Part shown: positions 46,478-51,612 of the stretch, piece after piece | How positions within the stretch are numbered: position 1 is the stretch's first letter | How the letters are laid out: every line of letters begins with the position of its first letter | Source of the DNA: Gemmatimonadaceae bacterium | Lineage (GTDB): Bacteria; Gemmatimonadota; Gemmatimonadetes; Gemmatimonadales; Gemmatimonadaceae | NCBI GenBank assembly: GCA_011525845.1 | Contig: WYBP01000017.1 | Span: forward strand, 124,001-188,000 | Length of the DNA: 64,000 nucleotides | Reading direction: 5' to 3' | Notes under the pieces: generated by a model | Seen by the model: the letters and a program-made list of their open reading frames with translations, nothing else | Told to the model about the DNA's origin: nothing | The model's database searches: none | Made by a program: the position numbers and the translations under genes

Positions 46478-47106
46478 CAGGCCTCCGAGCCACCCCAGCG
46501 CGGCGCCAGCTCGTTCGGCACGCCCAGGTGGTCGAGCGCACGTGCGACGATGAAGTCCACCAGATCGCTGACCCTCTCGGGCCGATGGTAGAACCCGGGA
46601 GCGGCGGGCATCACGACGGCGCCCGCGAGCGTCACCCGCCGCATGTTCTCCAGGTGGATGAGCGAGAGGGGCGTCTCGCGCGTGACCATCAGCAGGGGGC
46701 GGCGCTCCTTGAGCGCCACGTCGGCGGCGCGCTCCACCAGCGAGCGCGAGGTCCCCGCGGCGATGCTCGCGAGCGTCCCCATCGAGCAGGGGCAGATCAC
46801 CATCCCGCCGGCGAGGGAGGAGCCCGAGGCCGGCGCGGCGCCGCGGTCCTTGTCGTCGAACACCGTCACCAGCGCGTCGAACCGCCTGGCACCGACGGCC
46901 CTTCTCAGCCCGGCCAGGTCCTTCACCTCGCTCTCCGTCTCGAGCAGCCGGTACCCGTGCGACGAGACGATCAGCGACACGCGGCGCCCCGCCACGAGCA
47001 GCTGCTCGAGCAGCCGGATCCCGTACGGGGCGCCGGAGGCCCCCGTGATCGCCATCACGATCGGCGCAGTCGCCGGCGCCCGGGAGGGCGACTTCGCGCG
47101 GCTCAT
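46477..47106 (-). CDS. ubiX: Flavin prenyltransferase UbiX (possibly MqnM role)
   Basis: UbiX makes prenylated FMN, the cofactor of UbiD decarboxylases. The 209-aa protein has MAITGASGAPYGIRLLEQL near the start, ICPCSMGTLASIAAG, and RRPLLMVTRETPLS, all in the family order. It overlaps the ubiA gene (ATGA). Together with ubiA, ubiD and ubiE it forms a quinone set; in the futalosine route these roles are called MqnM, MqnP, MqnL and MqnG. Confidence 0.93.
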   Translation of the reverse strand: MSRAKSPSRAPATAPIVMAITGASGAPYGIRLLEQLLVAGRRVSLIVSSHGYRLLETESEVKDLAGLRRAVGARRFDALVTVFDDKDRGAAPASGSSLAGGMVICPCSMGTLASIAAGTSRSLVERAADVALKERRPLLMVTRETPLSLIHLENMRRVTLAGAVVMPAAPGFYHRPERVSDLVDFIVARALDHLGVPNELAPRWGGSEA

Positions 47107-48023
47107 CCGAACACCCGGTCCGCGAGGATGAACGCGAAGAAGGTCAGCGAGATCACGCCGTTCACCGTGAAGAAGGCCGAATCGAGCTTCGAGAGGTCGT
47201 CCGAGGAGACGAGGGAGTGTTCGTACGCGAGGATCGCCGCGGCGACCAGCACGCCGACCCAGGCCAGCATCCCCGCGCCCGCGGTCCAGACCGCCACGGA
47301 GAGCGCGGCCACGGTCACGAGGTGCAGCGCGCGCGAGACGCCGATCGCGCGCGGCACGCCGAGCGCCGCGGGGATCGAGTGCAACCCCTGCGAGCGGTCG
47401 AACTCGATGTCCGGGAGCGCATACAGGATGTCGAACCCGCCCGACCAGGTCATCACGGCCACGGTGAGCGCGACCAGGAGCCACCACGGGTCGCTCCACG
47501 CCCCCGTCACGGCGAGGTACCCGCCCACGGGCGCGATCGCGAGCCCGAGGCCGAGCACGAGGTGCGCATACCGCGTGAAGCGCTTCGTGAACGAGTAGAA
47601 GCAGACCCAGGCGAGGGCGACCGGGGAGAGCGCGAAGCAGAGCGGGTTGAGTTCGTACGCGGCCCAGACGAAGAGGGCCGCCGCCACGACGACCGTGGCC
47701 CACGCCTCCGCGACGCCGATCACGCCGCGCGGGATCTCGCGCCCTGCCGTCCGCGGGTTCCGCGCGTCGTACTCGCGGTCGACGATCCGGTTGACCGCCA
47801 TCGCCACCCAGCGCGCGCAGGTGAAGGCGAGCACCACCCAGCCGACGGTCGCCACGTCCACGGGCGCGACGCGCGTGGCGAAGGTGACGCCCACGAGCGC
47901 GAACGGGAGCGCGAAGACGGTGTGCGGCAGCTTCACGAAGCTCGCCCAGCGCGCCAAGCCCCCCTCGCCCGCGAAGGTCTGCCCCTCGCGCGGCGCGCCG
48001 CCGGCCGGTCGCGGCGCGGTCAC
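47103..48023 (-). CDS. ubiA: UbiA-family polyprenyltransferase (menaquinone, MqnP-like)
   Basis: This 306-aa membrane enzyme attaches the isoprenoid tail to the quinone ring. It has about eight helices and both aspartate-rich motifs: NRIVDREYDARNPRT and DILYALPDIEFDRSQG. The first form is common in MqnP/MenA-like branches, so 4-hydroxybenzoate is not the only candidate substrate. The GTG at 48023 overlaps the ubiD stop. Confidence 0.9.
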   Translation of the reverse strand: MTAPRPAGGAPREGQTFAGEGGLARWASFVKLPHTVFALPFALVGVTFATRVAPVDVATVGWVVLAFTCARWVAMAVNRIVDREYDARNPRTAGREIPRGVIGVAEAWATVVVAAALFVWAAYELNPLCFALSPVALAWVCFYSFTKRFTRYAHLVLGLGLAIAPVGGYLAVTGAWSDPWWLLVALTVAVMTWSGGFDILYALPDIEFDRSQGLHSIPAALGVPRAIGVSRALHLVTVAALSVAVWTAGAGMLAWVGVLVAAAILAYEHSLVSSDDLSKLDSAFFTVNGVISLTFFAFILADRVFG

Positions 48024-49501
48024 CGCGGCCCCAGACCGAGGGTCGGCCACATGGTGTCCACCTTCGCCTTGGTCTCCGCGTCCATCTCGATCACCCGGGG
48101 CCAGTCGCGAGTGAACCCCTCCTCGGGCCACTTCTTCGTCGCGTCGATCCCCATCTTCGAGCCGTAGGTGAAGGTCCGGCTCGCGTGGTCGAGCACGTCC
48201 ATCGGACCCATCGTGAAGCGCGTGTCACGCTCGGGGTCGATGTTGTTGAGCGCCACCCACCACGCCTCCTGCGTGTTCCGCACGTCCACCCAGTCGTCCA
48301 CCACCACCACGACCTTGGCGAGCGACATCAGCCCGGCCCCCCAGAGCGCGTTCATCACCTTGTACGCCTGCCCCGGGTACGACTTCTTGATCGAGACGAA
48401 GACGAGGTTGTGGAAGATGCCCTCCGCGGGCATGTGGTAGTCCACGATCTCGGGCGTGGTGAGCTTGAGGAGCGGGAGGAAGATCCGCTCGGTGGCGTGG
48501 CCGAGGTAGAAGTCCTCCATCGGCGGTCTCCCGACGATGGTCGCGCAATACACGGCGTTCTCCCGCATCGTCACCGCGGTCACGTGCACGCGCGGATACA
48601 GGTCCGCCTCCGAGTAATAGCCGGTGTGGTCGCCGAACGGCCCCTCGGTCACCAGCGCCTCGGCCGGGTCGATGTACCCCTCGATCACGATCTCCGCGTC
48701 CGCCGGCACCTCGAGGTCGCAGGTGAGCGCCTTGGTCAGCTTCACCGGCGCCTTCCGCAGGAACCCCGCGAAGATGAACTCGTCCACGTTGGGCGGGAGC
48801 GGGGCGCTCGCCGAGTACATCGAGGCTGGGTCAGCGCCGATCACGATGCAGACCGGCATCCGCTCCCCCTTCGCCGCCATCTCGCGCCAGTGCGCCGCCC
48901 CGGTCTTGTGCCGCTGCCAGTGCATCGCGACGTGCCGCTTGCCGAGCTGCTGCACGCGGTACATCCCGACGTTGCGGATGCCGCGCGCAGGGTCCTTGCT
49001 CACCACGGCGGTCATCGTCAGGAAGGGTCCGCCGTCCTCGGGCCAGGTGGTGAGCACCGGCAGCTTGTCGAGGTCGATCTCGTCCCCCTGCCAGACCACT
49101 GCCTGGCAGGCCGGCCGCCCGCTCGCCATCCGCGGCGGGAACTTCGCGATCTCCATCAGCCGCGGCAGGAGCTGCAGCTTGCCGAGGAACCCCTCCGGCA
49201 CCTTGAGGTCCATCAGCTTGGTGATGCGGTCGCCGTGCTCGTCGAGCTTCGTGACGCCGAGCGCGAGCGCCATCCGCGACATCGATCCGAAGAGGTTGAT
49301 CGCGACGGGGTACGCCGCGACGGAGCCGTCGCGCAGCACCGGCTTCTCGAAGAGGAGCGCGGGCCCGCCGCCGGGCATCTTCATCACCCGGTCGGTGATC
49401 TCGCACATCTCGAGCTCCACCTTCACGGGCTGCGTGATGCGGCGGAGCTCCCCCGCGCGCTCGATCGCCGCGATGAAGTCCTGCAGCGTGTCGATCGTCA
49501 C
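48020..49501 (-). CDS. ubiD: UbiD-family decarboxylase (menaquinone, MqnL-like)
   Basis: UbiD enzymes use prenylated FMN to remove a carboxyl group from aromatic rings. The 493-aa protein has INLFGSMSRMALALGV, EGPFGDHTGYYSEAD (with the conserved acidic residue) and VDDWVDVRNTQEAWW. The GTG at 49501 overlaps the ubiE stop. Placed with ubiX, ubiA and ubiE, it most likely acts in ring decarboxylation for menaquinone. Confidence 0.92.
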   Translation of the reverse strand: MTIDTLQDFIAAIERAGELRRITQPVKVELEMCEITDRVMKMPGGGPALLFEKPVLRDGSVAAYPVAINLFGSMSRMALALGVTKLDEHGDRITKLMDLKVPEGFLGKLQLLPRLMEIAKFPPRMASGRPACQAVVWQGDEIDLDKLPVLTTWPEDGGPFLTMTAVVSKDPARGIRNVGMYRVQQLGKRHVAMHWQRHKTGAAHWREMAAKGERMPVCIVIGADPASMYSASAPLPPNVDEFIFAGFLRKAPVKLTKALTCDLEVPADAEIVIEGYIDPAEALVTEGPFGDHTGYYSEADLYPRVHVTAVTMRENAVYCATIVGRPPMEDFYLGHATERIFLPLLKLTTPEIVDYHMPAEGIFHNLVFVSIKKSYPGQAYKVMNALWGAGLMSLAKVVVVVDDWVDVRNTQEAWWVALNNIDPERDTRFTMGPMDVLDHASRTFTYGSKMGIDATKKWPEEGFTRDWPRVIEMDAETKAKVDTMWPTLGLGPR

Positions 49502-50253
49502 CTGGTCCCCACGTGCACGGCGGCGATGCCGAAGGTGAGGGTCTCGAAGCGCACGTCGCGGAACCCCGCGGTCCGCATCGCCTCGGCGAGCGCGCCCGTC
49601 TCGGGGAAGTTCGCCACGGAGCGCGGGAGGTAGGTGTACGCTGTCCGGTGCCCGCTGACCAGCCGGCCGATGAGTGGCAAGATGCGATGGAAGTAGAAGA
49701 GGTATCCCGCGCGGACCAGCGGCACGCGCGGCGTGGAGAACTCGAGGATCACGAAGCGCGCGCCGGGCCTGAGGACGCGGTGCACTTCGCGGAGTCCCGC
49801 GTCGAGCCGGGCGACGTTCCGGATGCCGAAGGCGACGATCGCCCCGTCCATCACCCCGTCGCGGATCGGCAGCGCGAGCGCGTCGGCCACCACGGGCGCC
49901 AGCACCTCGCGCGGCGCCTTGCCGAGTCCCGCGCGCAGCATCGGCTCCGCGAAGTCGGCGCCGAGGATGGTGCCGCCGAACCCCTTCCGGCGGCTCAGCT
50001 CCGCGCCCACGTCGAGCGTGCCCGCGCAGAGATCGAGGTAGGCACCCGCGGGCGCCTGCTTCCAGCCCAGCGTCTCGATGGCGCGCGCGCGCCAGCGGCG
50101 GTCGATCCCGAGCGAGAGCAGGCGGTTGAGCAGGTCGTACCGGGGCGCGATCTCGGAGAAGATCCGCTGCACATAGAGGCGCTTCCCGGCCGCCGACGCA
50201 CCCTCGGCGGCCGCTTCGGCCTCGAGGACCTCCGCATCGAGCGCGTTCGACAT
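49498..50253 (-). CDS. ubiE: UbiE/MenG quinone C-methyltransferase
   Basis: This SAM-dependent enzyme methylates demethylmenaquinone (MenG) or the equivalent ubiquinone precursor. The 251-aa protein has RIFSEIAPRYDLLNRLLSLG, SAM motif LDLCAGTLDVGAELS and the post-motif GIRNVARLDAGLREVHRVLRPG. It is the first gene of the operon ubiE-ubiD-ubiA-ubiX-phosphoesterase. Its promoter is part of the palindrome shared with the sigma gene. Confidence 0.95.
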   Translation of the reverse strand: MSNALDAEVLEAEAAAEGASAAGKRLYVQRIFSEIAPRYDLLNRLLSLGIDRRWRARAIETLGWKQAPAGAYLDLCAGTLDVGAELSRRKGFGGTILGADFAEPMLRAGLGKAPREVLAPVVADALALPIRDGVMDGAIVAFGIRNVARLDAGLREVHRVLRPGARFVILEFSTPRVPLVRAGYLFYFHRILPLIGRLVSGHRTAYTYLPRSVANFPETGALAEAMRTAGFRDVRFETLTFGIAAVHVGTR

Positions 50254-50260
50254 AGTACTG

Positions 50261-50294
50261 AAAGTTGCCCGCCGTCTCCCATGCGGGCAAGTTT
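50261..50294. promoter_or_regulatory. Palindromic divergent promoter between ubiE and the ECF sigma gene
   Basis: The arms AAAGTTGCCCGC (50261-50272) and GCGGGCAAGTTT (50283-50294) match at 11 of 12 positions around a 10-base centre. Plus strand: TTGCCC (50265-50270), 17 bases, CAAGTT (50288-50293), serving the sigma gene. Minus strand: TTGCCC (50292-50287), 17 bases, CAACTT (50267-50262), serving ubiE. Each arm thus holds the -35 of one promoter over the -10 of the other. An operator is the alternative reading. Confidence 0.5.
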
Positions 50295-50306
50295 CCCCCC
50301 GATCGA

Positions 50307-50909
50307 ATGCCGCCCCCACTCGACCTCCCGAATCTCCCGGACGCCGACGTCGTCGCGCTCGCCCAGAAGGGACGGGAGGCGGCGTTCCGCGAGCTGATCC
50401 GCCGCTACGAGCGGCCGGTCTTCTCGCTCATCTATCGCATGGTGCGCGACAGCACCCTCTCCGAGGACCTGGCGCAGGACGCCTTCATCAAGGTCCTCAA
50501 CCACCTCGACAAGTACCGGCCCGAGTTCAAGTTCTCGAGCTGGCTCTTCAAGATCGCCAACAACGTCGCGATCGATCACCTCCGGCGGCGCCAGCTCCCG
50601 ACCGTCTCGATCGACGGCTCCCCGCACGCCCGCACCGCCGCCGACGTCGAGGCCACCTCGTTCGACATCCCCGACACGGGGGAGAACGCCCTCGACGAGC
50701 TCGCCTCCCGCGAGCTCGGCACGGCGATCGAGGTGGCCATCGGCAAGCTCCGCCCCGAGTACCGGAACTGCATCATGCTCCGGCACGTCGAGGGGCGGAG
50801 CTACGAGGAGATCGCCGCCACCCTCGACCTGCCCCTGGGCACCGTCAAGACCTACATCCACCGCGCGCGCCACGAGCTCCGGGACGCGCTGGAGCACCTG
50901 CGCGAATAG
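50307..50909 (+). CDS. ECF-family RNA polymerase sigma factor
   Basis: The 200-aa protein has sigma region 2 (FRELIRRYERPVFSLIYRMV ... AQDAFIKVLNHLDKY, SSWLFKIANNVAIDHLRR) and region 4 (RPEYRNCIMLRHVEGRSYEEIA, GTVKTYIHRARHELRD). No region 1 or 3. The acidic linker between them (about 110-140) is normal. The gene has almost no leader (-10 about 13 bases before the ATG). It precedes a ZAS anti-sigma gene and a sigma-W-like promoter, so it probably controls its own operon. Confidence 0.95.
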   Translation: MPPPLDLPNLPDADVVALAQKGREAAFRELIRRYERPVFSLIYRMVRDSTLSEDLAQDAFIKVLNHLDKYRPEFKFSSWLFKIANNVAIDHLRRRQLPTVSIDGSPHARTAADVEATSFDIPDTGENALDELASRELGTAIEVAIGKLRPEYRNCIMLRHVEGRSYEEIAATLDLPLGTVKTYIHRARHELRDALEHLRE

Positions 50910-51021: not shown

Positions 51022-51612
51022 ATGAACGACCCACACCTGCTTCCAGACCAGATCGACCTGTTGGTCGATGGCGACGCCGGACCCGATGTGACCGCCTTGC
51101 GTTCGCACCTGGACGGCTGCGAGCCCTGCCGCGCCCGCTACGACGCCGCGCGCCGCTCCGCGGAGGCGGTCGAGGCCCTCCCGCACTTCACTCCGCGCCT
51201 CCCGTTCGCCGACCAGATCATGTCCAAGGTCGAGCGGCGCGAGCCCTGGCACGAGACGGTCGCCGCGCGCGCGACGCGGCTGGTGCCGCCCCGCGGGCCG
51301 CTCCGGCTCGTCTCCATGCTCGGCGCCGGCGTCGGCGCGCTCGGCATCTCGGCAGTCGCCTTCTGGATGCTCCTCCGTTGGGACCTCACCGCCTGGCTCG
51401 TGAACCTCGGGATCGAGCAGGGGCGCAGAGTCGCCGTCGCCGGCGTGAGCGGCTTCGCGGCGGAGGCCCTCGGGGCGCCCGCCTCCGCGGCGCTGGCGCG
51501 GGGAGAGCTGTGGCCGGTGCTGCTGACCGTCGCGCTGCTCGCGCTCTCCGTACTCCTCGCCGGCCTGGGATTCCGCCGGCTCGCGGCCACCGCTCGCGCG
51601 AAGCGGGGTTGA
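51022..51612 (+). CDS. Membrane anti-sigma factor with zinc-binding (ZAS) domain
   Basis: The 196-aa protein starts with a ZAS-type motif H-x3-C-x2-C (HLDGCEPC), which binds zinc and holds an ECF sigma factor in the inactive state. A central membrane segment (about 93-115) and a second one near the C-terminus (about 165-187) place it in the inner membrane. RsiW-type regulated proteolysis is known for relatives; here the release signal is unknown. Partner: the sigma factor upstream. Confidence 0.88.
   Translation: MNDPHLLPDQIDLLVDGDAGPDVTALRSHLDGCEPCRARYDAARRSAEAVEALPHFTPRLPFADQIMSKVERREPWHETVAARATRLVPPRGPLRLVSMLGAGVGALGISAVAFWMLLRWDLTAWLVNLGIEQGRRVAVAGVSGFAAEALGAPASAALARGELWPVLLTVALLALSVLLAGLGFRRLAATARAKRG

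Follow-up and report, generated by a model that had tools for sequence, protein, structure and literature searches.

A palindrome conserved between ubiE and an ECF sigma factor gene in Gemmatimonadaceae probably holds two coincident divergent promoters

Features of the locus

Gemmatimonadaceae is a family of soil and freshwater bacteria. In the window, which is the whole 64-kb stretch of Gemmatimonadaceae DNA that was analysed, ubiE and an ECF sigma factor gene were divergently oriented across an intergenic gap of 53 bases (50254-50306), with the ATG of ubiE on the complement of 50251-50253 and that of the ECF gene at 50307 (Table 1). ubiE was the first gene of an ubiE-mqnL(UbiD)-mqnP(UbiA)-ubiX group, whose later genes matched TIGR03701, TIGR01475 and TIGR00421, and this group suggests the futalosine route of menaquinone synthesis. 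The group was co-directional on the minus strand (46528-50253), and it encoded UbiE, a UbiD-family menaquinone decarboxylase (TIGR03701), a UbiA-like prenyltransferase and UbiX.

None of the listed equivalog models reached its cut-off for the ECF sigma factor, so the "stress" label that the original prediction attached to it is a guess. The probable anti-sigma factor encoded downstream carried a cysteine-rich N-terminus and hydrophobic stretches, as seen in its translation.

A dyad of 36 bp, GAAAGTTGCCCGC-CGTCTCCCAT-GCGGGCAAGTTTC, occupied most of the 53-base gap, at 50260-50295. Its two arms of 13 bp each were separated by a 10-nt core and paired throughout except for a single G/G mismatch (50264 versus 50291). 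A dyad had been predicted at this place and does lie there, while the predicted length of 34 bp was too short. The two described patterns, TTGCCC-N17-CAAGTT on the plus strand and TTGCCC-N17-CAACTT on the minus strand, were both exact (50265-50293 and 50290-50262, respectively). The dyad is far from chance. The pattern TTGCCCGC-N6..14-GCGGGCAA matched once in the 64 kb and never in 100 shuffles, and with the spacer widened to N4..16 it matched once in the 3.58 Mb genome, with no match of the reversed control.

Table 1. Features of the ubiE/ECF locus, in positions of the window
Feature	Position	Strand	Basis
ubiE/menG, demethylmenaquinone methyltransferase	49498..50253	-	TIGR01934, 215 bits
Imperfect palindrome GAAAGTTGCCCGC-N10-GCGGGCAAGTTTC	50260..50295	.	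Sequence, and conservation with variable spacer in relatives
Predicted ubiE promoter -10, CAACTT, 8 nt before ATG	50262..50267	-	16.5 bits; position kept in the family
Predicted ECF promoter -35, TTGCCC	50265..50270	+	Leave-one-out promoter model
Predicted ubiE promoter -35, TTGCCC, with C before TTG	50285..50290	-	Model and family conservation (CTTGC)
Predicted ECF promoter -10, CAAGTT, N17 from the -35	50288..50293	+	13.9 bits
ECF sigma factor, sigma-70 regions 2 and 4	50307..50909	+	PF04542, PF08281, TIGR02937
Probable anti-sigma factor, downstream of the ECF gene	51022..51612	+	Weak match to NF052375 (25 bits, cut-off 100)

Promoter model of the genome

Nothing useful was found in the literature on Gemmatimonadota promoters or start-site maps. 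A sigma-70 scan over the dyad with the E. coli consensus, which is not this organism's own, gave no promoter, and this failure reflects the consensus more than the site. A promoter model was learned from the genome itself, with a sample of about 800 kb, read as stretches, in which genes were predicted and upstream regions extracted. Unsupervised expectation-maximisation (EM) with two blocks and a variable gap was run on 353 upstream regions from three seeds, one of them without any -35, and all three led to the same motif, T(T/G)G(C/A)C-N17/18-(T/C)ANNTT(T/C)C. TANNTT alone was present in 55 of 175 upstream regions, compared with 10.4 after shuffling; in same-strand gaps it occurred 23 times forward versus 6 times in reverse. 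The first base of the -10 element (position -12) was T in 103 and C in 45 of the 168 strong sites. These sites ended 5-8 nt before the start codon in 40 cases, while further out about 6 were counted per 4-nt bin in the same genome. This Gemmatimonadota genome has many genes with no leader or almost none, and with -10 elements peaking 5-7 nt before start codons, the near-leaderless placing at the dyad is normal here.

The consensus of Bacteroidetes promoters is TTG/TANNTTTG. The learned -10 element (T/C)ANNTT(T/C)C, preceded by TTG at a distance of 20 bases, is similar, but differs in a last base that is mostly C and a first base that is often C, in a genome of 70% G+C.

The -35 and -10 elements of ordinary one-way promoters were complementary at 1.96 of 6 positions, versus 1.94 after re-pairing (116 promoters), so the palindrome is peculiar to the ubiE/ECF site, and its origin as a by-product of a general -35/-10 complementarity was not supported. 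Among the divergent gaps of the genome with at least 10 bits in both directions, four promoter pairs (raw count) had an offset of +2 between their -10 hexamers, which is perhaps another preferred close arrangement.

Promoters predicted in the dyad

The model was retrained without the two dyad genes before the dyad was scored (leave-one-out). A promoter of the organism's own consensus was then found on each strand, with 16.5 bits towards ubiE and 13.9 bits towards the ECF gene. For reference, the 95th and 99th percentiles of shuffled upstream regions were 11.1 and 13.4 bits, the 90th percentile of real regions was 14.3 bits, and the top 1% of antisense sites began at 14.4 bits. Two points count against the promoter reading: the score in the ECF direction is just level with the top 1% of shuffled regions, and both -10 elements are without T at -12. 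No better promoter site was found in either direction when 130 bp around the dyad were scanned with the leave-one-out model. The original prediction of two overlapping divergent promoters is thus supported at the level of sequence, with good scores both ways.

The two predicted -10 elements were 20 bp apart, and each -35 overlapped the opposite -10 by three bases. Read on the opposite strand, the base pairs of the ECF -35 (50265..50270) also contain the start of the ubiE -10 (CAA) and the GGG upstream of it. Because TTG is complementary to CAA, each arm would serve one promoter as its -35 and supply the opposite promoter with the first half of its -10 and the part upstream, so that core base pairs are shared, as expected of a coincident divergent pair. 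The distance from -10 to start codon was 8 nt for ubiE and 13 nt for the ECF gene. Transcription would start near 50253-50256 for ubiE, about 0-3 nt before its ATG (leaderless or nearly so), and near 50300 for the ECF gene, about 7 nt before its ATG, which places the predicted starts about 45 bp from each other and, as had been expected, within a few bases of the start codons.

The actual dyad scored 16.46 and 13.86 bits, compared with 15.70 bits each or 14.62 bits each for the two perfect palindromes. The mismatch at 50264/50291 hands ubiE both the CTTGC form of the -35 and C as the fourth -10 base, with the ECF direction losing. The ubiE direction is predicted to be stronger than the ECF direction, because at the non-palindromic position both its -35 (CTTGC) and its -10 (CAACTT) come out better. 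In terms of the model, the conserved mismatch is explained by a polarity that would favour ubiE.

Conservation in relatives

Ten relatives of the genus with an orthologous ECF gene beside ubiE had the dyad at the same place, with arms nearly invariant, an inner distance of exactly 14, the asymmetric G kept and spacers saturated. A search of genome collections added 80 loci, so that 119 loci were read in all. TTGCCC-N14-GGGCAA was found between the two genes in 34 of the 119 loci, some of them the same species from two collections, giving 27 distinct sequences in the family; the conservation in relatives, which had been named as a check, was thus borne out. In a tree of the two proteins a single supported clade held nearly all dyads; L031 and the broken pair of L018 were placed outside it. 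When 26 clade members were anchored on TTG...CAACTT of the ubiE strand alone, they gave GAAACTTGCCCG and CGGGCAACTTTC, with sharp edges to variable flanks, and the two predicted promoters coincided exactly in 25 of these 26 loci. Over all compact loci the promoters were at the exact dyad offset in 25 of 44, and long-gap loci had them at this offset or one off in 4 of 64.

One locus, L141 (CALQGY020000057.1), was titled Candidatus Kuenenia stuttgartiensis, while its ubiE/ECF locus was of Gemmatimonadaceae type and lay deep inside the Gemmatimonadaceae tree. It is probably from a mislabelled or contaminated bin.

A ubiE promoter of the form CTTGC-N17/18-(C/G/T)ANNTT, 5-10 nt before the ATG, could be recognized at most family loci, including long gaps without palindrome, and the C before TTG was nearly universal. 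The long-gap loci carried a separate ECF promoter, GCTGG(T/C)-N17/18-TANNTT, besides a ubiE promoter that was usually CTTGC(C/T)-N17-(C/G)ANNTT, and both agreed with the model learned from the present genome. For ubiE of another family in the order, the motif 8 nt before the ATG was TATCTT, TACATT, TAGGTT or TACGTT. Since it is kept without the palindrome in the long-gap loci and in the other family, the predicted ubiE promoter is older than the palindrome and independent of it. The putative promoters can outlive the palindrome in some relatives: in L018 the pair stands at the same offset with two different -35s (TTGACT and TTGCAC), and both promoters persist in L130 and L036/L039/L040, where the spacer is 18 bp or the arms differ.

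L036-L040 came from small genomes of the same genus, with a much diverged ECF factor (53-55% identity) and a longer gap. Most of them had TTGTCC/TTGCC pairs with 18-bp spacing, 78-104 nt from the ECF gene, and the promoter pair may be decaying alongside genome reduction.

Proposed explanation and alternatives

The dyad probably represents two coincident, divergent promoters of housekeeping type, and the sequence evidence for two opposed promoters in the 36-base palindrome is strong. TTGCCC would act as the -35 on each strand, and CAA(G/C)TT 17 bp further on as the -10. RNA polymerase would be held in one orientation at any time; from the geometry, simultaneous binding in both orientations would be sterically excluded, because polymerase bound one way must lie over the core elements of the opposing promoter. 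Leftward transcription would yield a leaderless or near-leaderless message of ubiE and the menaquinone operon, and rightward transcription the message of the ECF sigma factor, with a leader of about 7 nt. We infer from this arrangement transcription itself, its start sites, mutual exclusion and a regulatory competition, in which ubiE and the ECF gene would be the competitors by virtue of the geometry.

The palindrome might in addition bind a dimeric transcription factor that represses or switches both overlapping promoters, in the way that BirA acts at bioO, which is compatible with the two-promoter explanation and which we hold to be a real possibility while leaning against it. The ubiE-strand -35 was CTTGCCCG in all 26 clade loci, each of the four bases before the ubiE -10 (CGGG) was kept in 23-26 of them, and the inner spacing was fixed in 25. 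The inner arm bases CCG/CGG were invariant or nearly so in the 26 loci, yet they have little weight in the promoter model and are variable in ordinary ubiE promoters; two light constraints acting together may be enough for this, and a dimeric protein reading the palindrome is possible as the simpler account. A second exact TTGCCCG-N12-CGGGCAA was also present in another divergent gap of the genome (C8:51469). On the other side, the palindromic match ends sharply within the arms, inner complementarity was below that of re-paired controls, and L018, as described above, lost the palindrome and kept both promoters. The full dyad occurred once per genus genome and always at ubiE/ECF, and in most genomes the counts of one-mismatch cores were close to those of the reversed control. 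The regulon search with the palindrome gave chance-level numbers apart from the C8 copy, so no conserved regulon was seen; neither further conserved operator sites in the genome and its relatives nor a regulator gene adjacent to the dyad were found. The C8 copy itself (G000:C8:51468-51495, identical to L172:1969-1996) is flanked by genes for an ABC exporter and a lipoprotein-like protein, and it had a promoter score in the lipoprotein direction only, where its 15.2 bits make a good one-way promoter. Relatives lack its palindrome, and several of them retain a one-way TTG-N20-.A..TT promoter at that place.

Palindromes of such size between divergent genes are usually operators, and the dyad could be a regulator site only, with the real promoters elsewhere. 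We consider this unlikely, as the gap is merely 53 bp, the 130-bp scan offered no better site either way, and the ubiE promoter is found at about the same distance in loci without palindrome. Autoregulation, with the ECF sigma factor recognizing the right-pointing promoter of its own gene, is quite unlikely: many ECF genes are autoregulated and GAAAGTT/GAAACTT at the arm ends resemble ECF -35 motifs, but the bases where an ECF -10 should be are either part of the variable spacer or unlike CGT-type motifs, and the dyad and the separate ECF promoter forms both fit the model learned from all genes. The ECF-type reading of GAAAC/GAAAG was rejected because the matching -10 would fall in the variable spacer. 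It is very improbable that the repeat forms a hairpin in one transcript (attenuator, terminator or leader structure). Folding of the plus strand gave -18.8 kcal/mol (z -3.9), but the predicted starts are downstream of the repeat, so that the hairpin would be in neither message; it has no T-run and no compensatory changes, with invariant arms and a varying loop, and no Rfam family was found for the dyad. An RNA hairpin or riboswitch was rejected on the fold and Rfam results.

Comparison with known systems

The BirA operator bioO of E. coli bioA/bioB is a large palindrome over overlapping divergent promoters, and the dyad is similar in this respect. bioO is a regulator site with different arms, whereas the dyad has no known regulator.

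In the published account of the Pc/Pr promoters of Bacillus subtilis plasmid pLS20, each -10 box is inferred to fall exactly on the -35 box of the opposing promoter (PMC4207663). The cross-over geometry of Pc/Pr and its pairing of a strong with a weak direction are like those predicted for the dyad. Pr requires the activator/repressor RcoLS20 and DNA looping, whereas both directions of the dyad fit the housekeeping model. In the portion of that account dealing with Pc/Pr a conserved palindrome is not described, whereas the dyad is a near-perfect palindrome kept across a clade, with both genes predicted to be near-leaderless. The exchange of -35 and -10 was thus already put forward for Pc/Pr; the conserved palindrome and the predicted near-leaderless genes on both sides are new.

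Warman, Grainger and colleagues described bidirectional promoters in which pseudo-symmetric DNA takes up RNA polymerase in two orientations and gives divergent messages (PMC12825309, PMC10268837). The dyad, too, is pseudo-symmetric DNA able to hold polymerase either way. Those promoters share a single -10, their starts being separated by 18 (also 10 or 23) bp, whereas in the dyad, which showed neither a shared -10 nor any of these spacings, the -35 and -10 are exchanged and the predicted starts are about 45 bp apart. Five bidirectional promoters tested in E. coli had a basal activity insufficient for competition, which set in when one side was activated (PMC12825309), so the relevance of exclusion at the dyad would depend on occupancy.

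In the sister family f3 (L019-L025), TAGATT on the plus strand and TAATCT on the minus strand overlap as one -10 (offset -6) just upstream of the ECF gene, for example at about 1475-1495 of L019 with the shared sequence TAGATTA. This overlap would put the divergent starts about 18 bp apart, which seems to be the classic bidirectional promoter type.

Significance

We propose only tentatively, and with considerable doubt, that Gemmatimonadota hold conserved promoter palindromes with -35 and -10 exchanged, selected for coupled and mutually exclusive expression of the menaquinone operon and the ECF gene, possibly with a dimeric regulator contacting CCG/CGG. The analysis also gives a working promoter model (TTGCC-N17-(T/C)ANNTT, with many near-leaderless genes) for a phylum without promoter data found in the literature, and it cautions against taking every palindrome between divergent genes for an operator. 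The ubiE/ECF dyad would be a clean natural case for the question whether competition of polymerases for a single DNA segment can regulate genes in its own right, and with an unchanged gene pair that has separate promoters, coincident -35/-10 elements or a shared -10 in different relatives, the effect of the overlap could be compared.
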